Assembly: GCF_000235565.1 (NCBI RefSeq)
Contig: NC_017527.1
Coordinates: 1,736,001 to 1,800,000, forward strand
From: Methanothrix harundinacea 6Ac
GTDB taxonomy: Archaea; Halobacteriota; Methanosarcinia; Methanotrichales; Methanotrichaceae
Direction: 5' to 3'
DNA: 64,000 bases
This document shows, piece by piece, positions 46,640 through 61,422 of this stretch. The notes beneath the pieces were generated by a model. That model was not told the origin of the DNA and made no database searches. It was given only the letters and a program-made list of their open reading frames with translations. The position numbers and the translations under genes are program-made. Positions within the stretch are counted from its first letter, which is position 1; each line of letters opens with the position of its first letter.

Positions 46640-47188
46640 ATGAGCATTAGATGGGTATCTGGATCGGTGGCGATCTTCTGGCTGATCGCCCTTACTGCCT
46701 CTTCTCAGCCCTATGGCTCATTCGACTCAGGTCTGGCTCACAATATCTCAGCTAATGTGACGATCAACGGCTCGGACAACGATAGGACCGACTTCGGCTT
46801 TTACATCCCCAAGGGGACAATAGGAGGGGTTGTATGGAACGACACTCCGAAGGATCCCATCATTAAGGAGGGGAATGGGATTCTTGAAGATGGTGAAGAG
46901 GGCCTGAAGGGGATCAACGTTTCCCTTCTCAAGGAAGGAACAGGCGAAAACCTCGTGGTCATCCCCTCCAACGATACGGGCGGATACATATTCGAAGTGC
47001 CCTACGGCAGATATAGAGTGGCTGTTGGAGAGGGTCAATATACCGGAGAAGAGCTTCAAGGAAAACCTTGTATAAAATTTATGGATTTCTGGTGGCATCC
47101 AACAACGGATTATGCTCAGATTGTAGTCATCGACATAAGTAATCCGGAGAACGCGACTATAAACTTCGGGCTGCAACTTATTGAGTAA
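46640..47188 (+). CDS. Secreted protein with SdrD_B/Cna_B-like domain
   Basis: A 182-residue exported protein. After the signal peptide (MSIRWVSGSVAIFWLIALTA) a linker repeats the phrase NVTINGSDNDRTDFGFYIPK also seen in the preceding gene (DNFTIDFGFYP). A beta-sandwich domain follows: IGGVVWNDTPKD, ILEDGEEGLKGINVSLLKEG, GGYIFEVPYGRYRVAV. The ending PENATINFGLQLIE is typical of such stalk proteins. The stop lies just before the start of the interrupted vWA gene, so they were probably cotranscribed. Confidence 0.68.
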   Translation: MSIRWVSGSVAIFWLIALTASSQPYGSFDSGLAHNISANVTINGSDNDRTDFGFYIPKGTIGGVVWNDTPKDPIIKEGNGILEDGEEGLKGINVSLLKEGTGENLVVIPSNDTGGYIFEVPYGRYRVAVGEGQYTGEELQGKPCIKFMDFWWHPTTDYAQIVVIDISNPENATINFGLQLIE

Positions 47189-47204
47189 GAATAGAGTGGA
47201 TTAT

Positions 47205-47882
47205 ATGAAATTCGTATATCTTATTATCTTGATCACGATCGTCTTATACGGCTCAGCCATCCTCTCAGGATCGGCTCTGGTCGAGCCCTACTTGAGAGTA
47301 GACCACGAAGTAACAACTCCAATCTGCGTTCAGGGTTCAGAAGGCGCTCCAGATTATGCCAGGCGGAGTACCGTAACCATTACTTTGGAGGGCCTTGGCG
47401 ACCCTACGCCAGTGGAAGTGGTATTTGCTATTGACTATTCTAACACCATGAAAATTAGCGATCCGAAGAACGCGCGACTGGTAGCTACCAAGGAGTTCAT
47501 AAAAAATCTCAATAAAAGCAGTGATAGAGCTGGGCTGGTCTATTGGAATAATAGCATTATCGAGTCAAGGGTTGTGAATTTAACCAGTGAGTTTGATGAA
47601 ATAATCGCCAAACTTGATAAGGATATCTCTGGAAGAGGGGTCTCGCCGGAGGGGTTTACCGATTTTAATAGAGCCCTCAACGCTTCGATCGATATGTTCA
47701 GCAATAAAAGTAAAAATACAAAAAAATGCATCATTTTCTTATCTGATGGTGAACCTAAGCCCCAATGGATCCCCTCGATCTACACCCCTCCCGACGGAGA
47801 GAGCTCCCCCGTAAATCGTGCAAAAGATGCGGGCATTCAGATATGGACCGAGTATTCCTATTTACCATTGCCCATTCTTTAA
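47205..47882 (+). pseudogene. vWA surface protein, 5' part, interrupted by an IS element
   Basis: Begins with a signal peptide (MKFVYLIILITIVLYGSAIL) and a vWA domain (EVVFAIDYSNTMK as MIDAS; CIIFLSDGEPKP). Host coding sequence ends at 47849 inside the vWA domain at GIQIWT; the remaining 11 codons to the stop are IS sequence. The continuation is at 48986. The frame upstream is open to 47181. Joining 47849 to 48986 gives an uninterrupted protein of about 775 residues. The truncated product lacks the end of the vWA fold and is probably non-functional. Confidence 0.85.
47846..47849. repeat. Target-site duplication GACC (left copy)
   Basis: GACC at 47846-47849 and again at 48982-48985 directly flank the IS element. 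Removing the IS and one copy restores the codons ATA TGG ACC GTG GGT of the host gene, so this is a genuine target duplication. Confidence 0.8.
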
Positions 47883-48981
47883 TTATCTCGGATCCGTCTC
47901 TTATTTTAGCTCGTTCTCCGCTCTTAATCGATTCTCGATCCTTTTCCTCGTTTTTCGTCGATAGCTACCGCTATTTTGAGACGATTTCAGCATTTTTAAG
48001 TGTACATAGCTGGTATAAGTCGAAAGCAAAGGCAGTGAATACCATTTTAACGTGAACTCTCGGGATCGTCGTTACCATTACATGCGCGCTTCGGAACACT
48101 CTTTTAATAACAGCAAACTGACGTTCGCCCGGAAATCTCAGTTTGCTAATCAAGCGGTTTCGCAGCTTATCGAGATCGCTTAGAGGATGACCCGCTGCTG
48201 CACGTTTCATTGTGAAGTCGTTTCCCTTAGCCTTCACACCGAAATATCCTTTGTCCCTGAGGACCACCTCTCCTTCAACCGATAGATCAACCCGACTATC
48301 GTGCACCGAAGCAGTTGTCGATTCGATGCTCCTTATCAGGCCGTAATCGATATCGACTTTAGAATGAAGTTTATAACCAAAATGGAGTTCCTCACCCTTC
48401 TTAGCCCAAGTTCCATCCCTGCTCCGACGAGTCCTAGCGGTCTCTCTTCTTGGTTTCTTTGAACCTCCTGGGTCGGCCTCTATAAACGTTGCATCCTGAA
48501 TGGTTCCTCTTTTTACCTGAAGCCCTTTAAAATCGAGCTGTCTCTGGAGCTCTTCCCAAACGGACTCATCCTTTCCCGTCTGGGCCATCCGCTCGCGAAA
48601 AAGCCATATCGTCCTGGAATCGGGTATAGAATCAGGAAATCCTAAGAATTTCATAAAAGATATTCGATCCGAAATCTGCTTTTCAGTCTCGAGGTCGCTC
48701 AACCCGTACCACTGCTGGAGCAAAAGCACCTTGAGCATCAGGATAACATCAAAGTTCGGCCTTCCGCCTCGTTCGGTTTTATTATGATACATCTCTTCAA
48801 GAATTGGTCGAAATGGTTCCCACTCGATCAAGTTCGTTATCTTTGAAAGCCTATCGCCCAGCTTCTCTACGTTCTTGTAAGCTTCTCGAAGGCCCCAGGC
48901 AGTAAAAGAACTCATACACTATTCATGTATATATTAGTATATAATGTTTTCCATAGACATGCTAGGTTTTTAGGAATCCTC
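47850..48981 (-). mobile_element. IS5-family insertion sequence, 1,132 bp
   Basis: The element is bounded by imperfect 17-bp terminal inverted repeats, GAGTATTCCTATTTACC (47850-47866) and, reading inward on the minus strand, GAGGATTCCTAAAAACC (48981-48965), matching at 13 of 17 positions. It is flanked by a 4-bp GACC duplication and carries one transposase gene. A 4-bp duplication suits the IS5 group of the IS5 family. The intact transposase and in-frame host gene on both sides point to a recent insertion. Confidence 0.88.
47971..48915 (-). CDS. IS5-type DDE transposase
   Basis: A 314-residue transposase with no internal stop. The N-terminal half has the IS5-type DUF772 region (RGGRPNFDVILMLKVLLLQQ, WYGLSDLETEKQISDRISF). 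The catalytic domain shows IQDATFIEAD (first Asp), VVLRDKGYFGVK (second Asp) and ERQFAVIKRVF (Glu). All three catalytic residues are present, so it may be active. It is oriented opposite to the host gene. A TATA-like TATATTAGTATATAATG lies just upstream of the ATG. Confidence 0.92.
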   Translation of the reverse strand: MSSFTAWGLREAYKNVEKLGDRLSKITNLIEWEPFRPILEEMYHNKTERGGRPNFDVILMLKVLLLQQWYGLSDLETEKQISDRISFMKFLGFPDSIPDSRTIWLFRERMAQTGKDESVWEELQRQLDFKGLQVKRGTIQDATFIEADPGGSKKPRRETARTRRSRDGTWAKKGEELHFGYKLHSKVDIDYGLIRSIESTTASVHDSRVDLSVEGEVVLRDKGYFGVKAKGNDFTMKRAAAGHPLSDLDKLRNRLISKLRFPGERQFAVIKRVFRSAHVMVTTIPRVHVKMVFTAFAFDLYQLCTLKNAEIVSK

Positions 48982-48985
48982 GACC

Positions 48986-50668
48986 GTGGGTTTTTATAAA
49001 GATCCATCGTCCATAGATAACGCCGATGAAGCTAGACTTAAAGAAATGGCAAAGACGACGGGTGGTAATTATACTTCATCATATAATTTAACAGTTCAGG
49101 CCGCTTTCAGAGAAATATACGACCAAATCCGGGGTCTTGCTGGGAAAAATATAATAGTTGAATATCATGCCCCAAAAGTGCTGAACTACTCGATCCCACA
49201 TAATCGGACAGAGGGCGATAACAAGGTCTTCGTCTGGAAGCCTGAGGATATTTACATCGGGAAAAGTTGGACAAGAAGCTTTAAGGTGGAATCCGAGAAT
49301 ACCGGACAATTTTACCTGGGGAACTCTCCTGGCTCATTGGTGAGCTATGATACTTATGATGAAAAACCTGAAGATCTTACCATCGAGGATAGGCTACTTG
49401 AGGTGGAAGAGTGCCCTAACGGATGCTGTTACAATATTATGAATATTTTAAATTTCAGCATTTCCAATCTTACCTACATGGAGGGAGGAAGTTTCAACTT
49501 CGGATCCGGATCTCCTTGCTACTACTGCATCCCTCCTCCTGGAACCGTCGGCGGTACCTCCGAGAAGGTCTTATACGTCTTCCTGAACGTCACCTGCCCC
49601 GAGTGCTCCACATGGAAGACCGAGGATGGATCGAAGATAAATAATATAAATATAAACCAGATCTCCACCATAGGTACCATCCCATACTGGAACGGCACCG
49701 ACGAGCCGACGGGCGTCATCAACCTCACCGTCTCGAGGCCCGAGGCGGCGATCGACGCCGTCCTCGCCTTCGACGTCTCCGGGAGCATGAGACTCGTCTA
49801 CGAGGCGATGCGCGAGGAGGACCGGGCCGCCTTCGCGGAGGCGAGCTTCAGCAACGTCTCCATCATCGGCTGGGACGAGGACGGCGCCGAGGGCGCGGGC
49901 GAGGATCTGCTGATGGTCCCGCCGCGACCCCTGAGGGAGGGCCGCGGGGAGCTCCTCGCAGCCCTGGCAAGCTTATCCGGACTCTGCGAGGAGACCGACC
50001 AGACGGTCTACGCCGCAGGCCTCCAGGGAGTCCGAGATCTCGATGATGACTTCGGCGACCACCTCGGCGGAGATGGCAAGATCATCCTCTTCATCACCGG
50101 CCCCGACGAGTTCCGGCCCGGCGAGAACCTCAGCGATCTGGCAATCGAGCTTAAGCGGAGGGGTTACGCGATATACCCCATCGGCGCCGCGATCGACGAG
50201 ATCGAGTCGCCCCTCAAGTACGACAACCTGAGCAGGATGGCGGAGATGACCGGCGGCCGGTTCTATCCGATCGAGGGCCTCAATTCCGAGGTCCTCGGGG
50301 AAGCCCTCCGGGATGCGGCGTCCCACGCCTCGGGGAGGGTCGCCCCCAGGGAGATAGTCGTCACCCAGACCCTTCCATCCCACCTGGTGGTGAGGGAGAC
50401 GGTTCCTGCCGGAGCGGATGTAGATGTGGCGAAGAACCCCGACGGGACCTCGACCCTCACCTGGGCCGTGAGGGGCGTGAGGCCGGGGGACTCGAGGAGC
50501 CTGATGATCCTCACCGGCATCTATGGGGAGCTTTCCTCGGAAGGCATCGGCGCCATCGTCTGGCCTGGTGGGATCAATATAACAGCTTTTGGGGATGGGA
50601 CCGCCGGGGTGAACGTCATCAACATGAGGACTGAAGACGGCGACGTGAAGATAGGAGGGATATCATGA
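48986..50668 (+). pseudogene. vWA surface protein, 3' part, downstream of the IS element
   Basis: The host frame resumes at GTG (48986) with VGFYKDPSSIDNADEARLKE, completing the first vWA domain, then a beta-rich region with the Cys cluster ECPNGCCYNI...CYYCIPPPG...CPECS, and a second vWA domain (DAVLAFDVSGSMRL, MIDAS). The C-terminal part has a DUF11-like segment (VVTQTLPSHLVVRETVPAGA). The first 600 bp are A+T-rich and the rest GC-rich. The GTG could in principle start a 560-residue product but would lack a signal peptide. Its stop overlaps the next gene as ATGA. Confidence 0.82.
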
Positions 50669-53187
50669 GTCTCAGGCATATCCTGGCGGTTGGGATCGCC
50701 TTATTCTTCGTCATGCTAGTCGCTCCCAGCGTGACGGGGTCATCCGAAGGTTCGAGCGGTCAGGCGGTTATTCTGGTAATAGATAACTCAGCTAGCATGG
50801 GAAAATCGGACGAAAATTGTATTCGTAATTATACAATTAGATTCTTCTTAGAGAAGATAGTCAATTTAGATTGCAATAACGATGAGTTCGCTCTTCGGAT
50901 AAAGGATACATTTATTGGAAATAAGAGCCATCCAATTAATCCCGTTTTTAGTAAAGATTGTAAAAATATAGTAGAAGTTTTGGGCGGCCTGAATCGTACA
51001 ATATGCTCTTCTTCAGAGGCAATAAATCACGATAAAATCTTAAAAAATGCAGTAAATGACTTCAGCAAAGCATCCAACAATAAAAATTATGTAATATATT
51101 ATTTCTCGGACGGAATAGAATATTCAAACCGTTCACGTTTTCTTTCATCAACTCTTCATCTTGCGAAGGAGAAAGGTGTCATCATCAACACAATAGGATT
51201 TGGCAATGATACCGAAGGTCTTAAGTTGCTAAAATATATATCTGAATTTACAGGAGGGACATTTTATCCTATAGAATCGATCCTCTCCATCGACATCGAG
51301 AAGTCGACGGACGATGACGACGCGGACTTTCCACCCGGTCCCGAGATCATCGTTGGCGATAACGTCACCTGGACCTACGTCGTGGCCAACCGTGGTAACG
51401 TTAACTTGACCTCTGTCCACGTCGTCGACGACATCATCGGTCTTATCGCTGGTCCGATCACTCTCGGAGCCGGTGAGAACCAGACGTTCAACATAACGGG
51501 AACTGCAGTTTTGGGCCAGTACCAGAATAACGCCACCGTAAACGGCACCTACAACGGTACCGAGGTCATGGATACCGATCCGAGCCATTACTTTGGGATG
51601 ATCCTCTCCATCGACATCGAGAAGTCGACGAACGGTGAAGATGCAGATTCAGCTCCAGGACCTATCCTAAACCTGAGCGATAACGTCACCTGGACCTACG
51701 TCGTGAACAACACAGGGAACGTGAACCTGACTGACGTCTACGTCGTCGACGACATCATCGGTCTTATCGCTGGTCCGATCACTCTCGGAGCCGGTGAGAA
51801 CCAGACGTTCAACATAACTGGAACTGCAGTTTTGGGCCGGTACCAGAATAACGCCACCGCAAACGGCACCTACAACGGTACCGAGGTCATGGATACCGAT
51901 CCGAGCCATTACTTTGGGATGATCCTCTCCATCGACATCGAGAAGTCGACGAACGGTGAAGATGCAGATTCAGCTCCAGGACCTATCCTAAACCTGAGCG
52001 ATAACGTCACCTGGACCTACGTCGTGAACAACACAGGGAACGTGAACCTGACTGACGTCTACGTCGTCGACGACATCATCGGTCTTATCGCTGGTCCGAT
52101 CACTCTCGGAGCCGGTGAGAACCAGACGTTCAACAGAACGGGAACTGCAGTTTTGGGCCGGTACCAGAATAACGCCACCGCAAACGGCACCTACAACGGT
52201 ACCGAGGTCATGGATACCGATCCGAGCCATTACTTTGGGATGATCCTCTCCATCGACATCGAGAAGTCGACGAACGGTGAAGATGCAGATTCAGCTCCAG
52301 GACCTATCCTAAACCTGAGCGATAACGTCACCTGGACCTACGTCGTGAACAACACAGGGAACGTGAACCTGACTGACGTCTACGTCGTCGACGACATCAT
52401 CGGTCTTATCGTTGGTCCGATCACTCTCGGAGCCGGTGAGAACCAGACGTTCAACAGAACTGGAACTGCAGTTTTGGGCCAGTACCAGAACAACGTTATA
52501 TCGAACGGTACCTACAACGGTACCGAAGTCAACGATACCGATCTGAGTCACTACTTGGGTATTATCCGAACCAATGCCACCGTCGTCTTCGCCCTCGACA
52601 CCTCGGGCAGCATGAAAAAGTACTACCATCTGGCTCCAAACGAGAGCGCCGAGATCGTCTCGGGATGGTCCGCCTTCGAGAACTCCACCGTCTCAATCGT
52701 GAGCTGGGACCATGCTAGCGAGCTCCTCTTCGGGCCTGCCCCCCTGAAAGGGAACGAAGACCGGCTTGCTGAGATCCTAGACAACCTGTCCGAGATGTGC
52801 ATCGAGACGGATCTCACATACTATGACCAGGGGCTCAACGGCTCCCTCGCGGAGCTTCGCGATCCTGCCTCCGTGCCCCCCAACTCCTCTAAGATAATCG
52901 TCTTCCTGACGGGGTACAGCGAGTTCGAGGCGGGGGAGAAGCTGGACGAGTACATATCCGAGGCGAACGAATTGGGATGCAAGGTATTCACAATAGGCAT
53001 CGGTATCAACGAGAGCTTCGAAGCTTCCAAAAATCAGCACCTTAACCTCACCAAGATCTCAGAGGGGACCGGCGGCATTTTCTCCCCAGTCGCAGCTTTT
53101 AGCTCCGGAGATCTCAACCCCATAATGGAAATTATCTCCCGAGAGCTTGAAGGCGATCTCATGTATGCAGAGTCAGAGCCTCAGTAG
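50665..53187 (+). CDS. Large surface protein: vWA - four DUF11-like repeats - vWA
   Basis: An 840-residue exported protein. Signal peptide to about residue 28; N-terminal vWA domain (AVILVIDNSASMGK, about 30-205); four 107-residue repeats (206-633) of DUF11 type, each with NVTWTYVV and VNLT(D/S)VYVVDDIIGLI cores; and a C-terminal vWA domain (VVFALDTSGSMKK, about 640-830). Many N-x-T/S sites suggest glycosylation. The N-terminal vWA coding region (about 50760-51270) is markedly A+T-rich while the rest is GC-rich, so the gene looks like a fusion of parts of different origin. It overlaps the preceding gene as ATGA. Likely an adhesin or sheath component; no anchor helix is seen. Confidence 0.85.
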   Translation: MSLRHILAVGIALFFVMLVAPSVTGSSEGSSGQAVILVIDNSASMGKSDENCIRNYTIRFFLEKIVNLDCNNDEFALRIKDTFIGNKSHPINPVFSKDCKNIVEVLGGLNRTICSSSEAINHDKILKNAVNDFSKASNNKNYVIYYFSDGIEYSNRSRFLSSTLHLAKEKGVIINTIGFGNDTEGLKLLKYISEFTGGTFYPIESILSIDIEKSTDDDDADFPPGPEIIVGDNVTWTYVVANRGNVNLTSVHVVDDIIGLIAGPITLGAGENQTFNITGTAVLGQYQNNATVNGTYNGTEVMDTDPSHYFGMILSIDIEKSTNGEDADSAPGPILNLSDNVTWTYVVNNTGNVNLTDVYVVDDIIGLIAGPITLGAGENQTFNITGTAVLGRYQNNATANGTYNGTEVMDTDPSHYFGMILSIDIEKSTNGEDADSAPGPILNLSDNVTWTYVVNNTGNVNLTDVYVVDDIIGLIAGPITLGAGENQTFNRTGTAVLGRYQNNATANGTYNGTEVMDTDPSHYFGMILSIDIEKSTNGEDADSAPGPILNLSDNVTWTYVVNNTGNVNLTDVYVVDDIIGLIVGPITLGAGENQTFNRTGTAVLGQYQNNVISNGTYNGTEVNDTDLSHYLGIIRTNATVVFALDTSGSMKKYYHLAPNESAEIVSGWSAFENSTVSIVSWDHASELLFGPAPLKGNEDRLAEILDNLSEMCIETDLTYYDQGLNGSLAELRDPASVPPNSSKIIVFLTGYSEFEAGEKLDEYISEANELGCKVFTIGIGINESFEASKNQHLNLTKISEGTGGIFSPVAAFSSGDLNPIMEIISRELEGDLMYAESEPQ
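51280..52563 (+). repeat. Four tandem 321-bp in-frame repeats
   Basis: Units start at 51280, 51601, 51922 and 52243, each exactly 321 bp (107 codons) and beginning with ATCCTCTCCATCGACATCGA. Units 2, 3 and 4 are nearly identical at nucleotide level, including silent positions; unit 1 differs in its first 40 codons and unit 4 in its last 20. This suggests recent duplication or gene conversion and predicts length variation between strains. Confidence 0.95.
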
Positions 53188-53260: not shown

Positions 53261-53893
53261 ATGCGACTTTTGGGCGCCGATGAGGCGGGGAAGGGGCCGG
53301 TGATCGGCTCGATGTTCGTCGCTGGAGTGGTCATCGACGAGGACCGGCTCTTCGACCTGGCGGCCCTGGGGGTGAAGGACTCAAAGCTCCTCGCCCCCGC
53401 CAGGAGGGAGGCCCTAGCCATCAGGATAGAGAAGATCGCCCTCGACAGATACGTCCTGGAGGTGAGGCCCGAGGTGATCGACGAGCTCCGGAAGATCATG
53501 AGCATGAACGAGATCATGGTCAGAAGCTTCTCAAAGGTCCTGGAGAACCTCTCGGCGGATAGGGCGATCCTCGACGCCGCCGACGTGAAGGCGGAGCGGT
53601 TCGCCCGGAGGGTGAAGGAGGTGAGCAAGACCTCCATGGAGGTCGTCGCCGAGCACCGGGCCGATCGAAACCACCCGGTCGTCGCCGCCGCCTCGATCCT
53701 GGCCAAGGTGAGGAGGGACCTGTCGGTCCGGGAGATCGAGAAGGCCGTCGGACGAGAGATCGGTAGCGGTTATCCATCAGATCCCGCCACCATCCGCTTC
53801 CTCGAATCCTGGGTGGGGGAGCACGGCGACCTTCCTCCCGTCGCGAGGCAGAGCTGGAAGACCGCAGAACGGATAAAAGCTAGATTTATATAG
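53261..53893 (+). CDS. rnhB: Ribonuclease HII
   Basis: Removes RNA from RNA-DNA hybrids and single ribonucleotides from DNA. The 210-residue protein opens with LLGADEAGKGPVIGSMFVAG, with the catalytic D and E of DEAGKG at residues 6-7; later motifs are ILDAADVKAERFA (third acidic residue), EHRADRNHPVVAAASILAKV (fourth Asp and stabilising residues) and GSGYPSDP. Length is normal for archaeal RNase HII. No clear ribosome-binding site precedes the ATG, so the message may be leaderless. Confidence 0.95.
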   Translation: MRLLGADEAGKGPVIGSMFVAGVVIDEDRLFDLAALGVKDSKLLAPARREALAIRIEKIALDRYVLEVRPEVIDELRKIMSMNEIMVRSFSKVLENLSADRAILDAADVKAERFARRVKEVSKTSMEVVAEHRADRNHPVVAAASILAKVRRDLSVREIEKAVGREIGSGYPSDPATIRFLESWVGEHGDLPPVARQSWKTAERIKARFI

Positions 53894-53926: not shown

Positions 53927-55066
53927 TTGGAAATCGAGGACACGCTGCTGATGATCCCGGGGCCTGTTAAGGTCCCCCAGAGGGTGCTCCGGGCCATGGC
54001 GAAGCCGATGATCAGCCACCGAAGCGCCGACTTCGAGAAGATCTACGAGGACTGCAGGTCGAGGCTGAAGGACCTCTTCGATACGGAGAACGAAGTCGTG
54101 GTCCTGAGCGGCAGCGGAACCGCCGGCATGGAGGCGGCCGTCGGCGGCATCATCGGCGAAGGGGAGAAGGTCGTCACCGTCACCAACGGAAAGTTCGGCG
54201 AGAGGTTCACGGAGCTCGGCGACCGTTACGGGTCCATAGTTCCCCTCGACTTCCCCTGGGGAACCCCCTTCGACCTGGCGAGGATAGAGGCGGCCCTGGA
54301 GGATGGCGCCAAGGCGATCACCATGGTCCACAACGAGACCTCCGTCGGGATCGTCAACCCCGCTAGGGAGGTAGGGAAGCTCGCGAGAAAGTACGACGCC
54401 GTATTCATCGTCGACGGCATCTCCTCCGTTGGGGGTAACGAGTTTCTCACCGACGAATGGGGGATCGACATCGCCATCACCGGATCTCAGAAGTGTCTCG
54501 CCGTGCCGCCGGGTCTCGCTATGGTGGCCGTCAGCAAGAGGGCGATGGACCTCTTGGAGGAGGGGAAGGGCGGCTATTATACCGACCTCAAGGCCCACCT
54601 GAAGAAGGCCAGCAAGAACCAGACCCCCTACACCCCAGCCGTCTCCTTATTCTTCGCCCTCCAGGAGGCGCTGAAGATGGCCGCAGAGGAGGGCTTCCCC
54701 GAGAGGCGGGCCCGGATGGCTGCCCTCGCCGGGGGGGTGAGAGCGGCAGCATCAGCCCTCGATATCCAGCTCTTCCCCCAGGTGAACGAGCACACCACCT
54801 ACTCCAACACCGTCACCGCCATGAAGATGCCCTCCGGCATAAGCGACAGCCAGCTTCGCGGAGGGATGCGAAAGCGCGGCGTCGTCGTCTCCGGCGGCCA
54901 GGAGGGGCTGAAGGGGAAGATATTCAGGATAGGGACGATGGGGGCCTGCACCGAGGCCGACGTCCTCAGGACGATTCAGACCCTGGAGCTGGTCCTGGAG
55001 AAGGAGGGCGTGATATCCAGCCTCGGGGCTGGGGTCGAGGCGGCGAGCAAAGCCATCGAGGCTTGA
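53927..55066 (+). CDS. Class V aminotransferase (alanine-glyoxylate/serine-pyruvate type)
   Basis: A 379-residue PLP enzyme. Motifs: IPGPVKVPQRVLRAMAKPMI (substrate loop), VLSGSGTAGMEAAVGG (PLP phosphate loop), VDGISSVGGNEF (Asp to PLP nitrogen) and K189 in ITGSQKCLAVPPG (Schiff-base Lys). Archaeal members transaminate alanine, serine or aspartate with glyoxylate or 2-oxoacids; the exact pair cannot be read by eye. The start is TTG (53927-53929) with GAGGGAT upstream. It begins 33 bp after rnhB and is probably cotranscribed. Confidence 0.9.
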   Translation: MEIEDTLLMIPGPVKVPQRVLRAMAKPMISHRSADFEKIYEDCRSRLKDLFDTENEVVVLSGSGTAGMEAAVGGIIGEGEKVVTVTNGKFGERFTELGDRYGSIVPLDFPWGTPFDLARIEAALEDGAKAITMVHNETSVGIVNPAREVGKLARKYDAVFIVDGISSVGGNEFLTDEWGIDIAITGSQKCLAVPPGLAMVAVSKRAMDLLEEGKGGYYTDLKAHLKKASKNQTPYTPAVSLFFALQEALKMAAEEGFPERRARMAALAGGVRAAASALDIQLFPQVNEHTTYSNTVTAMKMPSGISDSQLRGGMRKRGVVVSGGQEGLKGKIFRIGTMGACTEADVLRTIQTLELVLEKEGVISSLGAGVEAASKAIEA

Positions 55067-55132
55067 ATCTCCCTCTAAAATTTTTCATCTCCGTCGCCGC
55101 CAGTTCATCCGTTAACATTTAATAGAGACATA

Positions 55133-55142
55133 TCTTTTATAG
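55133..55142 (+). promoter_or_regulatory. TATA box of the tubulin-like GTPase operon
   Basis: TCTTTTATAG lies about 58-67 bp before the ATG at 55200 in an A+T-rich spacer following the aminotransferase gene. It is the only promoter-like sequence seen before five tightly packed genes that end at 61422. Confidence 0.45.
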
Positions 55143-55199
55143 CCCCAGGCGCAGATTGTGAAATATAGTCGGATAAATCGGGTGGGTTGTGAAAGCTTG

Positions 55200-57161
55200 A
55201 TGTATAGGATATCTGCGATCGTCCTCTCTCTCTTGGCCATCGTGGTCCTGACTCCGGCCCTCGGCCAGACGGAAGCGTCCATGAGCTTCCAGCAGGTGAG
55301 CACCGCCAGCTTGCCTTACAACGTCAACCAGCCGATAGCCTACAAAATCCACCTGACTAATGCGATGAACAGCCCCATGCGCTACTCGGTGGAGCTGGAG
55401 GTCGGACCCGACTTCACCGACTACACCGCCTCAAAGAGGTACACGACCGACATCAGCCTCACGGCCCGCTCGGCTCAGGACGTCGTCTTCGACGTCAACT
55501 TCAGATCCCCGGAGATGAGCCGGGGAGCCTTTGGGAGGTGGTCCACCGACGATAACGACACCAGCATCTGGGAGAAGGGCTGGTACAGGGTCTTGATAAC
55601 CCCCCTCGTCGGCTCTCCCGTGACCCTGGAGAGCTACGACGGCGAGCCCTCCCTCATCAAGATGGTCACCGTCTACAGAAGCCCCGAGGTATCCCCCAAG
55701 ATGGGGACGGATGCCGACCTTTATAGCTATCGGATTGAGGTCTTCTCCAGCGCCGATGACGCGGTGACGCTCCAGGTGGCTCCGGAGGCGATCGGCCCCT
55801 GGAAGGACTGCGGTAGCCGGAACTACACCAACATCGGCGGATGGCAGACCCTGAGGTGGGAGAACGTCTCCCTCGACTTCGACTTCCTCAAGGGCTGGTA
55901 CAGGTTCGTCGGAAGAAAGCAGACCGAGGCCTTCGAGGGGCCCTTCTGGCCGGTGGAATACGAATACTCAAACGCCACCGTCGCCCCAAAAGACGGCTTC
56001 TCAGGCTCTCCTTTCACCTACTCCCTCGATTTCAGGGGCTCAAAGAACCTGGACGTAGGCCTCAACATCTGGGACGTAGACCAGAACCTCTTCAAGCTCG
56101 TCGAGAAGAAGAGATACGGAAACGCCACCGTCTGGCAGAGGCTCGTCTGGACCGGCGTCATGCCCAGCGAGGCGATAGGCTCGGAGGGGGCGAGCTCCTA
56201 CTACTTCAGCTTCTACTACCCCGGCTCCGAGAGCCCCCTGGGGACGAGCCGGGAGGAGGAGGGGAAGGTGAACCTCGGCCCGGAGATCGTCCTGATAAAG
56301 TACGAGAACTCCACCGTCTCCCCTGAGAGGGGGAGCGCCGTCGCCCGGTATACCTACGCCGTCGACGTCAGCACAGCCCTCCCCGTCTGCGACATAGAGC
56401 TCCAGACGAGCGAGCCGGGATCTGGGATCTGGAGGTCCCAGGGGATAGCCACCTACAACGGCGACCCCAGGATAACCTGGAAGGACGTGGCCTTCGGCGG
56501 CGACGTCGCCGGCAACGTAAGCTACCGGTTCATTAGGGTGGCTTCACCCCCCACCGTCTATCAGGGGCCGACCATCTTCAAGGAGTCGATCACAGGAAAT
56601 GTAACGCCGGCCAGAGGTGTTATGCAGGTCTTCCCCGACAGCAATAACCTCAACAGGTACGTTTACACGATCCATATCGAGAACCTTGGGAACGATTCTG
56701 AGTATAAGGGGGAGATCTGGGTGGAGCTTCTGGTCAAGGCGCCCAACTCCGTCTGGAAGGCTGTAGGCGAACGGAAGCAGTATTCTACTTCAAACGGAAA
56801 CGTATCCTGGGTGCTCAAGCCCTTCACAGACGTCGAGTTCCTCGGACCTGCAGAGTACAAGTTTCTGGTCAATGGCGTAGAAACGGCGGTATTCAGCGGC
56901 CCCGAGATCGTCGCCATGTACAAAAACCTCGATTATGAGGACGTCAGTCCTGGTCGTTATAACTACGTGGCCTGGGTCAATGGAAGCGTCGACATGATAG
57001 CCGACCTGATATACTCCACCGACAACGAGAACTGGAAGAACCTCGAAGATTGGAAACGTTATACTGGAGGGTCCGGCTGGACGAGGCTCGCCTGGGAGGA
57101 CAAACCTGGATACAGGTTCTACGAGGTTGATATCAGATTCGAAGAGCCGGTGGGGATCTAG
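55200..57161 (+). CDS. Large exported repeat protein, first gene of the tubulin-like operon
   Basis: A 653-residue exported protein from the ATG at 55200 (signal peptide MYRISAIVLSLLAIVVLTPALG). The mature part is beta-rich and consists of about five related domains of 95-130 residues; several begin with a V-(S/A/T)-P phrase (EVSPKMGTDADLYSYRIEVF, ATVAPKDGFSGSPFTYSLDF, STVSPERGSAVARYTYAVDV, GNVTPARGVM) and contain a W-x-x-(L/V)-x-W core and a YRF/YKF ending. No membrane anchor is seen. I do not recognise the family; Ig-like folds are likely. It is followed after 2 bp by the next gene. Probably an extracellular partner of the membrane proteins in the operon. Confidence 0.78.
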   Translation: MYRISAIVLSLLAIVVLTPALGQTEASMSFQQVSTASLPYNVNQPIAYKIHLTNAMNSPMRYSVELEVGPDFTDYTASKRYTTDISLTARSAQDVVFDVNFRSPEMSRGAFGRWSTDDNDTSIWEKGWYRVLITPLVGSPVTLESYDGEPSLIKMVTVYRSPEVSPKMGTDADLYSYRIEVFSSADDAVTLQVAPEAIGPWKDCGSRNYTNIGGWQTLRWENVSLDFDFLKGWYRFVGRKQTEAFEGPFWPVEYEYSNATVAPKDGFSGSPFTYSLDFRGSKNLDVGLNIWDVDQNLFKLVEKKRYGNATVWQRLVWTGVMPSEAIGSEGASSYYFSFYYPGSESPLGTSREEEGKVNLGPEIVLIKYENSTVSPERGSAVARYTYAVDVSTALPVCDIELQTSEPGSGIWRSQGIATYNGDPRITWKDVAFGGDVAGNVSYRFIRVASPPTVYQGPTIFKESITGNVTPARGVMQVFPDSNNLNRYVYTIHIENLGNDSEYKGEIWVELLVKAPNSVWKAVGERKQYSTSNGNVSWVLKPFTDVEFLGPAEYKFLVNGVETAVFSGPEIVAMYKNLDYEDVSPGRYNYVAWVNGSVDMIADLIYSTDNENWKNLEDWKRYTGGSGWTRLAWEDKPGYRFYEVDIRFEEPVGI

Positions 57162-57163
57162 GC

Positions 57164-58615
57164 ATGAAAAGAGGCTTTATAGCAATATTTTTGCTCATCT
57201 TCTACCTTATGGGGTCTGTCCAGGGGGCCGAGGGGCCGGGAGGTCCGAGCGGGTCCACAGGGGGCGGTTCCAGCGGAGGCAGCGCCGGAGCTTCTACCAC
57301 CACCAGCAGCGGGGGGAAGAAGATCGTCAAGCTGGAGCTGGAAGACCTCATAGGTAATATGGAGAAGTGGAAGCAGAGCGACCCCGAGAAGTTCGATTAC
57401 CTGAAGAAGCTCCTTCACATACCCTTCGTCCCGCCGAAGGACTACTCCACCCCCACCGTCCTTATCTGGTATCCCAACTCCACGGAGAAGGCCGAGATCA
57501 CCCGGAACGAGAAGCTCGACATATATGCCTGGGTCAAGAACGAAAATCCCATCGAGGTCAGGTCGGACGTCTACCTCTACCTGGAGGCGAAGGGCCCCGG
57601 GGATGAGAACTTCACCAGGGTCGGCTCCCAGAGGGTGATCCTGGCTAACGAGTACACCGGGGGTTCCAACTCCACCACCAGGGACTGGTCCGGGCTGATG
57701 CCGTTCGTCGATTCGAGGGAGGTGGGGAACGCCACCTTCCGGATATGGTTCAACGATATGCACAGCACCTACCTCACCGATACCATGTACGCCAAGCCTT
57801 ACAGACAGGGCGATTTTTTCAACGTCCTGGAGCTCTCGCTCGTCAACAGCCCCCCGTTGGTCGTGGGAGAGAGCATCAAGGTTGAGCCGGCGAGGGCCAG
57901 GTACAACGACCCCATCAGGTATTCAGCTGGGTTCGTCGACACCGACGGCGATATGGTGAACGTCACCCTCCACGTCCTCGACGACCAGGGCGGGATTTTG
58001 AGAAACCTCACCCAGGAGGTGAAGTCGGGGACGAACGTCACCTTCTCCGCCACCGAGTATGGCCTCTTCGGGGAGGCGGACGCCGGTAGGAACTTCTCTT
58101 ACCGGTTTAGCTACGACGACGGCCTCGACGGGAACGCGACGGCCGTTTACCCCGGGCCGAGCCTCCTTCCCAGCCCCAAGATCTTCGTCTCGGACCCCCA
58201 TGTGGAGGCCGCCGACGAGAACCGGTACTGGTGGCAGAACTACCGGTTCAGCCTCAGGGTGAAGAACCCGGATGTGGATAACCTTCGGATAGACCTCTAC
58301 ACCAGCACCCCCTCCCATCCCAACAGGTACCAGGCGACGAGGGAGATCAACGCCTCGGAGGAGGCGCAGGTGGTGATCTTCGACCTTCAGCCCTTCGACG
58401 TATCTGACGCCGACGAGAGCTTCAGCTATTACTTCAAGTACTCGGCGACGGACCAGAACTCCAAAGAGGAGATGGGCGGAACCTCCGATGGTAAGATAAA
58501 TCCGAAGATCGTCAGGTATCCGATATACTCCATGGTCACGATCGCAAACCTCCTCGTGGTACTGCTGGCAGCCCTTGCGGGAGGGATCGTGATCGAGAGG
58601 AGGCTGTACCGATGA
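57164..58615 (+). CDS. Exported protein with C-terminal membrane anchor, tubulin-like operon
   Basis: A 483-residue protein. Signal peptide (MKRGFIAIFLLIFYLMGSVQ), a 35-residue Gly/Ser/Thr-rich linker, a helical segment (about 50-85, KLELEDLIGNMEKWKQSDPE), then two or three beta domains (TVLIWYPNSTEKAEITRNEK; VGESIKVEPARARYNDPIRY; a domain around FSLRVKNPDVDNLRIDLYTS) and a single C-terminal helix MVTIANLLVVLLAALAGGIV followed by ERRLYR. It is thus an outward-facing, membrane-anchored protein. It overlaps the next gene by 4 bp. Domains resemble those of the preceding protein in style. Unknown family. Confidence 0.78.
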   Translation: MKRGFIAIFLLIFYLMGSVQGAEGPGGPSGSTGGGSSGGSAGASTTTSSGGKKIVKLELEDLIGNMEKWKQSDPEKFDYLKKLLHIPFVPPKDYSTPTVLIWYPNSTEKAEITRNEKLDIYAWVKNENPIEVRSDVYLYLEAKGPGDENFTRVGSQRVILANEYTGGSNSTTRDWSGLMPFVDSREVGNATFRIWFNDMHSTYLTDTMYAKPYRQGDFFNVLELSLVNSPPLVVGESIKVEPARARYNDPIRYSAGFVDTDGDMVNVTLHVLDDQGGILRNLTQEVKSGTNVTFSATEYGLFGEADAGRNFSYRFSYDDGLDGNATAVYPGPSLLPSPKIFVSDPHVEAADENRYWWQNYRFSLRVKNPDVDNLRIDLYTSTPSHPNRYQATREINASEEAQVVIFDLQPFDVSDADESFSYYFKYSATDQNSKEEMGGTSDGKINPKIVRYPIYSMVTIANLLVVLLAALAGGIVIERRLYR

Positions 58616-59295
58616 GCGACCTGAACGAGACGGTGGCGGCGGTCCAGGCCGTCGATATATCTTCAGGCCTCGCCTCCGAGGGGGTATCGAGCTTCCTCGC
58701 CGGCATATACTCCAACGGCCCTCTGGGCGTCGCGATATTTATCGCCCTCCTCGCCGGAGGCCTCCTCCTCCACAGGCTGAACATGGATAGGACCTATCGG
58801 AACGTGGCGGCCACCACCCGGGACGGTGAAGTATCCCCCGAGGACCTTCGGGATGAGATGTTCACCCGCCAGGGATCGAACTTCAACGCCGCGGCGGTGG
58901 CGGCCTGGATGCTCCTCTTTGCCGCCTTCGCCTACTTCTACTTCCTGACCCCCGAGATATTCCCTGGCCACAACTACTACCAGCTGCCGACTTTATCTTC
59001 GGGACCCCTGGGCTTTGCGGCCTTCGGCCTCTTCGTCCTCCTTCTGGCGGGGTTGGCGGCCGCCTTCATCCCCAGGGAGCTCTACGGCTACTACGAGCTC
59101 TCCAGGAAGACGAAGGTCGCGATAATGCTGACGGTGCCGGCCCTGGCCCTATCCATAGCCCTATCCGTCCAGCTGGGGACGATATTTCCCGAGGTGGACC
59201 CGGCTGCTAGGGGCCTCGCCTTCCTCGCCCTCTTCGGCTCCGAGGTGGCGCTTCTCTTCCCCGTATATGCCGAGGCCCGAGGAGGGATGAGATGA
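58612..59295 (+). CDS. Five-helix membrane protein, tubulin-like operon
   Basis: A 227-residue integral membrane protein with five clear helices: GPLGVAIFIALLAGGLLL (about 36-53), AVAAWMLLFAAFAYFYFL, LGFAAFGLFVLLLAGLAAAF, VAIMLTVPALALSIALSV and AFLALFGSEVALLFPVYA. A charged cytosolic loop (about 55-92, RLNMDRTYRNVAATTRDGEV) lies between helices 1 and 2. It overlaps both neighbours by 4 bp. It may link the exported proteins to the cytosolic GTPase encoded next; that is inference from gene order. No family recognised. Confidence 0.78.
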   Translation: MSDLNETVAAVQAVDISSGLASEGVSSFLAGIYSNGPLGVAIFIALLAGGLLLHRLNMDRTYRNVAATTRDGEVSPEDLRDEMFTRQGSNFNAAAVAAWMLLFAAFAYFYFLTPEIFPGHNYYQLPTLSSGPLGFAAFGLFVLLLAGLAAAFIPRELYGYYELSRKTKVAIMLTVPALALSIALSVQLGTIFPEVDPAARGLAFLALFGSEVALLFPVYAEARGGMR

Positions 59296-60818
59296 GGCTC
59301 TGTATAGTTGGGATCGGCGGTTGTGGGGGACATCTGGCGGAGCGGTTCCTTAAAAACCAGGACGTGGCACCCCTCAAGAAGTCCCTGGGAGAGCACGTCT
59401 CCTTCGGAGGCGTCAAGGGCCTCTGGCTGGAGGCGGACGTCCAGGAGACGGAGAACCAGAGCTTCTTTGGCTCCCATGAGAGGGGGTGCTACCCCTGCTA
59501 CTTCATACCCCACGACGTCATCATATCCGAGTCCAAGACCTCGAAGCTGATCGTCGACCGATACGGGTACGACGTCAAGAAGCAGGGTTTCATGAGGCAG
59601 GCCGAGTTTCTCAAGGCCGTCTTCGAGATCTTTGAGGCGGACGAGGAGGTGAAGCGGGCCGCCCTTTCGGAGAACGAGTCAGAGAACCCGATCCTCCGGG
59701 CAGCCTGGGACAGGATAAGGGATTATACGACCCTGGCGGCTGCGAAGGAGACCGGCGGATCGGAGATGTGCGACGGGATCCTCTTCATCGTCTCCCTCGG
59801 CGGCGGTACGGGGACCGGCTTCGTCAACCCCATAACCAGGTACATCCGGGGGGAGAGGCCCGCCTATCCGGTCTTCGTCCTGGGGATCCTCACCGAGGAG
59901 GGAACCGACCCTCAGCAGAGGGCCAAGGAGGCGAAGAGGGATCTGGGAGCCTCCATATCCCTCTTCGACCTCTTGACCAAGAAGGTGGGGGTGGGGGTGG
60001 ACGGGGTGATCCTGGTGGACAACCAGATCCTGGTGGAGAGGTTCGGCCAGAACTACCCTGCCATCGACGACTTCATCCACCAGTCGATGAGGCCATTCGT
60101 CGCCGGCCGCCACTATCCGGGGGAGGACCCTCCGAGCCTGGCGATGAGGGAGAAGTTCATTGAGGGGGTCGAACGCCCGCCCATCCTCGTACCCTGCTAC
60201 TTCCGGGATAGGAGGAGGAAGGACCCTGAGGACGAATTAGTCAGAAAGGCCCTCTCGGAGGGGAAGCTCTTCGGCTGCGATCCCCGGCGGGCAGAGAGGG
60301 CCTACGTCTTCACCAGAGGGTTCATGAGCCTGGAAGAGATTGGGAAGGCGGTGGCTAGGGAGACGGGCCTTTCTCCGGATCGGATAGAGCCGTGGAGGAA
60401 GCTTGGGGAGAACGGCTGGGACGAGGTTCTGATCCTCCTGCGAAACCCCTACGGGGAGAAGAGGGGATGCGAGGTGAAGGGGAACCTCGAGCATCGGCTT
60501 CACAGGGTGATCAGGATGGCGATCAGGTACATGGACGATCCCGAGAGCCACCTCGTAAAGGATGGGATGCCGGATATGACGAAGACGGCCCTCGCCGACT
60601 ACTTCTATGGGGACGATGGTATTCGAACGCGGTTTGAAGCAGGTCTCAAGAGGATAGAGGAGGGAGAGAAGCCCTTCTTCCTCAACGAGAGGAACATCTT
60701 CGAGAGGTCTAGCCGGAGTACCGGCGACCACGACTTCCACGGCGGCAGAAAGATCGACGAGGATGAGGTTCGGACGATAGTGGAGCAGATCCTCAAAGAC
60801 CGGGGCCTAGTGAACTGA
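59292..60818 (+). CDS. Divergent tubulin/FtsZ-superfamily GTPase
   Basis: A 508-residue cytosolic protein. It opens with LCIVGIGGCGGHLAERFL (T1-like nucleotide loop), and carries the tubulin signature GGGTGTG at 170-176 in VSLGGGTGTGFVNPI. A candidate T7 catalytic loop is NYPAIDDFI (254-262), the acidic residues being D259/D260, comparable to NLDFADV of FtsZ. A C-terminal extension of about 200 residues is unlike FtsZ, CetZ or TubZ, and a basic-acidic tail ends at DRGLVN. An insertion between T1 and T4 (about 30-150) has a CYPCYF motif. It lies in an operon with membrane and exported proteins. FtsZ-like families linked to membrane remodelling are known; whether this belongs to one of them needs a profile search. 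Confidence 0.82.
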   Translation: MRLCIVGIGGCGGHLAERFLKNQDVAPLKKSLGEHVSFGGVKGLWLEADVQETENQSFFGSHERGCYPCYFIPHDVIISESKTSKLIVDRYGYDVKKQGFMRQAEFLKAVFEIFEADEEVKRAALSENESENPILRAAWDRIRDYTTLAAAKETGGSEMCDGILFIVSLGGGTGTGFVNPITRYIRGERPAYPVFVLGILTEEGTDPQQRAKEAKRDLGASISLFDLLTKKVGVGVDGVILVDNQILVERFGQNYPAIDDFIHQSMRPFVAGRHYPGEDPPSLAMREKFIEGVERPPILVPCYFRDRRRKDPEDELVRKALSEGKLFGCDPRRAERAYVFTRGFMSLEEIGKAVARETGLSPDRIEPWRKLGENGWDEVLILLRNPYGEKRGCEVKGNLEHRLHRVIRMAIRYMDDPESHLVKDGMPDMTKTALADYFYGDDGIRTRFEAGLKRIEEGEKPFFLNERNIFERSSRSTGDHDFHGGRKIDEDEVRTIVEQILKDRGLVN

Positions 60819-60840
60819 TATTCCAAGGGGGGGTTGAGAA

Positions 60841-61422
60841 GTGGCAAGAAATGGGGTCGTCCTCGCGGTCGTGGCCCTAATCATTGGGGCTTACGCCCTC
60901 CTCCACGGGGATGGGGGCATCGACGGAACCTTCGGGGCCGATGGGACGGGAGGGGTGCCCGACCCCTACTACCTGGAGCTGAAGGCCGCCGACGTCCAGA
61001 ACCCCGACGATGTCATCAGGTACAGCAGCTCCATCAGGGGCTACACCGCCGGCCTCGATGTCTTCGAGAGGGCCGCCTTCTACGAGTGGTACCTCAAGAG
61101 CACCGGGTTTGACGTCTCCTTCGCCTACTCCGAGGATTTCCGGGGCCGGGGCGCCGATCACCTCTGGCTCCTGGTGAAGAACAAGAAGGGCGAGGTGATC
61201 GAGGTCGACCCCTCCTTTACGGCGGTGGGAGGCCCATCGATGGTCCCCCTCAGCCCGGAGTACACCCGTTACGACCGAGAGTTTGAGGGGATATTCGAGG
61301 CGGAGGAGGCCCTGGGGCTGGAGAGGCTCGCCTGGTGGAGGGACGAGGCCGCCCAGGAGGTCCTGAACGATAACATAATCCTCGCGGAGAAGGAGAGGGC
61401 CCAGAGGATGGCGGAGGGCTAG
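60841..61422 (+). CDS. Membrane-tethered transglutaminase-like protein, catalytic Cys not evident
   Basis: A 193-residue protein with an N-terminal anchor helix (GVVLAVVALIIGAYALLHG) and an exported domain. The segment AAFYEWYLKSTGFDVSFAYS, then DHLWLLVKNKKGEVIEVDPS, has the H...D arrangement of the transglutaminase-like fold (HxW...VDP), but no Cys is present in the domain where the nucleophile should be. It is therefore likely a non-catalytic member or binding domain. A helical tail (about 150-193) follows. GTG start at 60841 with GGGGGGTTGAG upstream, 22 bp after the GTPase gene. Last gene of the operon. Confidence 0.7.
   Translation: MARNGVVLAVVALIIGAYALLHGDGGIDGTFGADGTGGVPDPYYLELKAADVQNPDDVIRYSSSIRGYTAGLDVFERAAFYEWYLKSTGFDVSFAYSEDFRGRGADHLWLLVKNKKGEVIEVDPSFTAVGGPSMVPLSPEYTRYDREFEGIFEAEEALGLERLAWWRDEAAQEVLNDNIILAEKERAQRMAEG

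Follow-up and report, generated by a model that had tools for sequence, protein, structure and literature searches.

What is a divergent tubulin-like GTPase gene doing in a tight run of genes for membrane and exported proteins? The question was raised by five consecutive genes, here called A to E, in the window, meaning the whole 64,000-nucleotide stretch of Methanothrix harundinacea 6Ac DNA that was analysed; the window genome comprises 2.57 Mb in two contigs. According to the original prediction all five lie on the plus strand, two junctions leaving gaps of 2 bp and 22 bp and the other two overlapping by 4 bp each, and both coordinates and spacings were found to be exact. Two genes 5' of the run served as landmarks in other genomes, and they presumably belong to the ribonuclease HII and class-V aminotransferase families.

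Features of the tubulin-like gene locus, with positions counted from the first letter of the window
Feature	Position	Strand	Basis or remark
Exported vWA-protein gene (two vWA domains; DUF7507/DUF11 repeats)	50665..53187	+	
Ribonuclease HII-like gene (RnhB)	53261..53893	+	Conserved flanking landmark, primary locus
Class-V aminotransferase-like gene	53927..55066	+	Conserved flanking landmark
AT-rich TATA-like element 5' of A	55130..55145	+	By eye
Gene A	55200..57161	+	ORF, N-terminal signal, repeats from homologue alignments, dN/dS
Gene B	57164..58615	+	ORF, topology, predicted structure
Gene C	58612..59295	+	ORF, topology, loop charge
Gene D	59292..60818	+	ORF, PF00091, AlphaFold, profile alignments
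Gene E	60841..61422	+	ORF, locus comparison; no catalytic cysteine

The dN/dS values (about 0.36 for A, 0.23 for B, 0.16 for C, 0.13 for D and 0.21 for E) identified all five as real genes under purifying selection. Within A-D the constraint weakened from the inside outward (D > C > B > A), A being the fastest evolving core gene. For A an alternative upstream GTG start is possible at 55158; the signal peptide starts at 55200. The hairpin described earlier 3' of E was no more stable than shuffled sequence (z -0.65) and was given up. No RNA element match was obtained with Rfam, and a sigma-70 promoter scan, the model of which is unsuited to archaea, detected nothing. Searches with PADLOC and PHROGs gave no match and thus pointed neither to a defence system nor to a phage family. 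With A, B, C and E, no match to Pfam or NCBIfam reached the cut-off of the family concerned.

The protein D comprises 508 amino acids and carries the sequence GGGTGTG at residues 170-176. It matched PF00091 above the curated cut-off (E=6.1e-9), and the same family was matched by all 40 D members at E<=0.01, with an invariant GGGTG(S/T)G loop. The AlphaFold model of D, with 40 relatives in the alignment, reached a pLDDT of 83 and a pTM of 0.85. When this model was compared by Foldseek, alignments of about 500 columns were obtained with beta-tubulin (E 2e-13) and with CetZ2 (4b45; TMt 0.74, 19% identity). D is therefore modelled with the complete two-domain tubulin/FtsZ fold, as had been proposed from the DNA, and neither method gave any sign that the fold was absent. 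The large C-terminal extension attributed to D earlier turned out to consist for the most part of the usual C-terminal domain of tubulins and of tubulin-like C-terminal helices, and only a short added tail was retained from that description, with a low-confidence linker at 474-487 and a last helix at 490-503 in the AlphaFold model. At one locus of genome G010 (L072:8628-10475) D was broken by a single in-frame TAG, for which read-through, decay to a pseudogene or a mistake in the assembly could account.

Among the 40 members the nucleotide pocket of D was well preserved, the T1 (GIGGxGG), T4 (SxGGGTGTG) and T6 (DN) motifs being invariant or nearly so. In the profile alignment on which the T7 assignment in D rests, PGLINLDFAD of FtsZ aligned with PGEDPPSLAM in D, so that N, D and D were replaced by P, S and M. 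The asparagine of T7 and its two catalytic aspartates thus appear to be missing from D. E278 was acidic in 34 of the 40 members (E in 28, D in 6) and could substitute for the lost T7 acids. The two T7 aspartates promote nucleotide hydrolysis in the adjacent subunit (PMC8936486); FtsZ and tubulin subunits act on their neighbours through such T7 acids, and the loss of these in D argues against FtsZ-like treadmilling.

The missing T7 acids would also suit a constricting ring poorly, and this bears on the idea that D acts in cell division, constricting in place of FtsZ2 or assisting it, which we consider improbable. What speaks for such a role is the state of FtsZ2. In the window genome (L024:1174-2268; G000:C2 about 2542593-2543501) its nucleotide motifs were lost, T4 reading GGLGEGMKPEG while T7 keeps NLDYA, and a similar loss was seen in most other Methanocrinis, all of them carrying the cassette. 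Among the relatives compared (L190, L197-L206), L190 showed such a loss as well. The N-terminal half of FtsZ2 was undetectable in the M. thermoacetophila-like genus, where the cassette is present. In L206 FtsZ2 was frameshifted, and it was intact in the cassette-free complete genome (G022). However, G022 is the only complete genome free of the cassette, FtsZ1 was intact in the window genome, and intact FtsZ2 was found in many cassette genomes, which weakened the idea of a replacement.

Profile ranking placed D closest to CetZ (97.9%, E 6.5e-13), followed by FtsZ (90%, E 1.5e-6) and FtsZl1 (87%, over 57 columns). In a tree of 37 proteins D was monophyletic (100/100) and separate from FtsZ1/FtsZ2 and from CetZ, the latter represented by archaeal CetZ of the same class and not by those of Halobacteria. 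The tree gave D no resolved sister group, because long branches meet. Judged from its sequence, D forms a branch of its own, nearest by profile to CetZ and outside FtsZ, CetZ and FtsZl1. CetZ are archaeal tubulin-like shape proteins, and one CetZ is encoded in the window genome too. D shares the T6 motif DGxILVDNQ with them, the profile match spanning residues 160-360, whereas the CetZ T7 motif VTDLGD falls in a gap of D, which additionally has larger N-terminal inserts and an operon with C, B and A. With FtsZ1/FtsZ2 it has the fold and the T1 and T4 motifs in common, but it lacks the T7 NxDxxD, branches separately and lies in an operon with membrane and exported genes.

The fold of the superfamily is also common to D and TubZ/PhuZ, and phage tubulins were among the structural matches, as would be expected of a partition tubulin of a plasmid or phage. 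We regard this as hardly credible for D, which is chromosomal and syntenic across genera and is accompanied by membrane and exported proteins, none of them DNA-binding. A viral origin was likewise rejected, as the search of viral contigs for D gave no match. With its separate branch, lost T7 and chromosomal block devoid of partition partners, D agreed with the earlier statement that it matches neither FtsZ, CetZ nor TubZ.

To follow the neighbourhood, D was searched across relatives, the flanking DNA was taken and the window genes were mapped onto it by tblastn. The conserved unit consists of the four genes A-B-C-D and excludes E. In the whole-genome search the order A-B-C-D was held in 24 of 25 loci, the sole exception being G003 with a truncated B together with C, D and E and without A. 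Among the named-organism loci A-B-C-D was complete unless cut by a contig end, except in L058, which is the same genome as G003. Where the contig was long enough, almost all Methanotrichaceae genomes showed this order, and hardly any genome outside the family did. Genomes G002, G007 and G011 each carried a further, diverged copy of A-B-C-D at another site, the A gene of the G011 copy running off the contig. The RnhB and aminotransferase landmarks were absent beside these copies, which suggests that the four genes move or are duplicated together. C and D overlapped by ATGA in 36 of 38 loci, which suggests coupled translation, and their pairwise distances correlated with r=0.84 (B vs D 0.70).

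Conserved order, translational coupling and co-inheritance all uphold the proposed functional linkage of the tubulin-like gene with membrane and exported genes; homologues lacking this linkage were looked for, and the linkage was found conserved. The expected co-occurrence of five families held for A, B, C and D and failed for E, which was found in Methanocrinis plus L061 and L064 only. E encodes 193 amino acids with one N-terminal helix as anchor. It had been described as transglutaminase-like, and a conserved His was indeed present, but no catalytic cysteine and no Pfam match were found. Neither a working transglutaminase nor a core partner is supported. We concluded that E is an accessory, genus-level add-on.

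In 238 genomes of the class strong D matches were confined to Methanotrichaceae, the remaining ones being weak and mostly to frames of ordinary FtsZ/CetZ size. B was present in 14 of 393 genomes of the phylum, every one of which also contained D, and 13 of the 14 belonged to Methanotrichaceae. The outlier G269 is probably identical to L092 (UBA148 'Methanocellaceae' MAG), the cassette genes of which nest inside Methanotrichaceae in all trees, making transfer or misbinning likely. In L092, the sole case of the cassette outside Methanotrichaceae, a glycosyl hydrolase family 25 gene was located just 5' of it.

At 3,008,626 bp, the complete genome G022 contains none of B, C and D and is presumably that of M. 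soehngenii, a species we take to be the same as Methanothrix concilii. Directly after its RnhB-aminotransferase locus come unrelated genes, none of which matched the A-D profiles. The cassette is therefore dispensable, as far as one complete genome indicates. The sheath had been named as a possible target of the system, and the clean locus of G022, if this is the sheathed M. soehngenii, disfavours it and makes such a role unlikely. We rate assembly of the sheath or of septal plugs as very unlikely, since sheath genes also had no conserved neighbours; in its favour, the partners are exported and the family is one that forms sheathed filaments (PMC11576556), with Methanothrix concilii as a classic sheathed-filament species in the works cited there.

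We then considered what D is linked to. A is a secreted protein of ~650 amino acids with a signal-like N-terminus and no C-terminal anchor, and it is internally repeated, as seen from second, shifted alignments to homologues. Several genomes encode a giant A of 1235-1460 amino acids (L064:2543-6922, L066:3194-6898, L068:2697-6827), in which no domain was recognised. B starts with a signal peptide, a disordered Ser/Gly-rich N-terminal stretch and two short helices, continues in the predicted structure with about three tandem Ig/FN3-like beta-sandwich domains, and ends with one C-terminal membrane helix and the cytosolic tail ERRLYR. B reached a pTM of no more than 0.54, which is in keeping with domains strung together flexibly, and a PDB sequence search with B gave no match. 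C comprises five hydrophobic helices with a predicted N-out/C-in topology. Lysine and arginine were concentrated in its loops 1 and 3 (mean K+R 6.9 and 3.1) compared to loops 2 and 4 (0.8 and 0.3). This positive charge predicts that the two conserved loops 1 and 3, at about residues 53-90 and 154-171, are cytosolic and should face D, and many conserved polar residues of C sit in the same two loops.

Taken as a whole, A-B-C-D may well be a transenvelope module of Methanotrichaceae, built on D as a GTP-binding cytosolic scaffold or switch; we favour this reading while giving it slightly less than an even chance. The gene block, fold, motif states, co-inheritance and predicted topology were computed, and from there we infer nucleotide binding, polymerisation, contacts, chain order and envelope function. 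D would hold GTP or GDP in the usual pocket in the cytosol, and the absent T7 acids would make it a slow scaffold, or a switch turned over by an outside factor, and not a treadmilling ring. It might dock onto the conserved cytosolic loops of C, perhaps aided by its C-terminal helix. B, with an ectodomain of tandem Ig-like domains that is expected to stand outside the membrane, would take up position or state from C and would bind the secreted repeat protein A. In this way the module could organise or anchor a protein layer outside the membrane, most likely where the inner scaffold selects. Conserved operons fall short of proving a physical chain among A-D.

The literature searched covers FtsZ1, FtsZ2, CetZ, artubulins, FtsZl1/FtsZl2 and scattered non-canonical archaeal members. 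Neither the cassette nor the D family was described in it, an entry in the lists of supplementary tables, which were outside its scope, being possible. We concluded that D is a distinct family of the tubulin superfamily with its own conserved envelope cassette. That a strongly diverged tubulin relative of this family always shares its block with genes for a five-helix membrane protein and for two exported ones points to a possible machine, so far undescribed, that would connect the inside of the cell to its outer layers. If a tubulin-fold protein is lastingly coupled to exported proteins, it would give direct access to the way in which an archaeal cell adjusts its interior and its outer protein layers to each other, and the loss of T7 chemistry with retention of the nucleotide pocket provides a testable prediction on non-treadmilling tubulin-type GTPases.

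A known system of similar composition is that of FtsZl1/Tubulin_2, a divergent tubulin-type GTPase also linked to membrane and exported proteins and sometimes near vWA genes. D differs from it in scoring 17.9 against the 27-bit curated cut-off of FtsZl1 (PF13809), in lacking the long coiled-coil part and the alpha-helical C-terminal part while keeping T6/H7 and the tubulin C-terminal domain, and in having partners unrelated in sequence. In Methanosarcinaceae an FtsZl1 of about 1050 amino acids adjoins an exported, C-terminally anchored protein, and further neighbours were another large protein and one that has four to six membrane helices in its N-terminal part. Two genomes of other families contained a relative of 880 amino acids, next to which lay genes for an exported anchored protein and a small protein with four helices. 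None of these partners showed detectable homology to A, B or C when single sequences were compared against profiles, so the same types of part recur around different tubulin-type proteins. It is conceivable, and we put this forward with more reserve than the module itself, that D represents a new family which binds GTP without neighbour-triggered hydrolysis and acts as a cytosolic switch or scaffold, connected to exported proteins by a dedicated relay in the membrane, and that modules of like architecture, though built from parts unrelated in sequence, have apparently arisen repeatedly in the class. The conserved loci L134 and L135 (G058, G086) encode three tubulin-superfamily proteins of about 880, 420 and 405 amino acids along with exported anchored proteins and a four-helix protein, and seem to be another undescribed tubulin/envelope cluster.

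FtsZl1 systems are reported to include vWA proteins, and a membrane-remodelling role was proposed for them (Makarova and Koonin 2010, PMC2875224). The main rival to the transenvelope module is the same role here, namely that D is a stand-in for FtsZl1 which bends the membrane via C in remodelling or vesicle formation, with vWA proteins as occasional partners. We consider this unlikely. It would account for the same kinds of part next to FtsZl1 in Methanosarcinaceae, and a long FtsZl1 frame was found in no Methanotrichaceae genome; however, this complementary distribution of D and FtsZl1 sets clade against clade and amounts to at most one event. A, B and C lack detectable homology to the FtsZl1 partners, as stated, and the match between D and FtsZl1 extends over no more than the 57 columns given above.

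The vWA genes give evidence for both sides. Within 10 kb a vWA gene was present at 7 of 17 clusters, compared to a chance expectation estimated at roughly 5% per cluster (binomial about 1e-5, computed with n=18), and this enrichment is suggestive only, the genomes being related. No vWA gene occurred near the other 10 clusters, and never was one inside A-B-C-D. The vWA protein 2 kb upstream of the cassette in the window is possibly a loose associate outside the block. Its DUF7507/DUF11 repeats are about 100 amino acids each and near-identical. Further upstream, at 47181-50668, another vWA-protein gene seems to be interrupted by the minus-strand gene of an IS5-like transposase (47971-48915), leaving two frames at 47181-47882 and 48986-50668.
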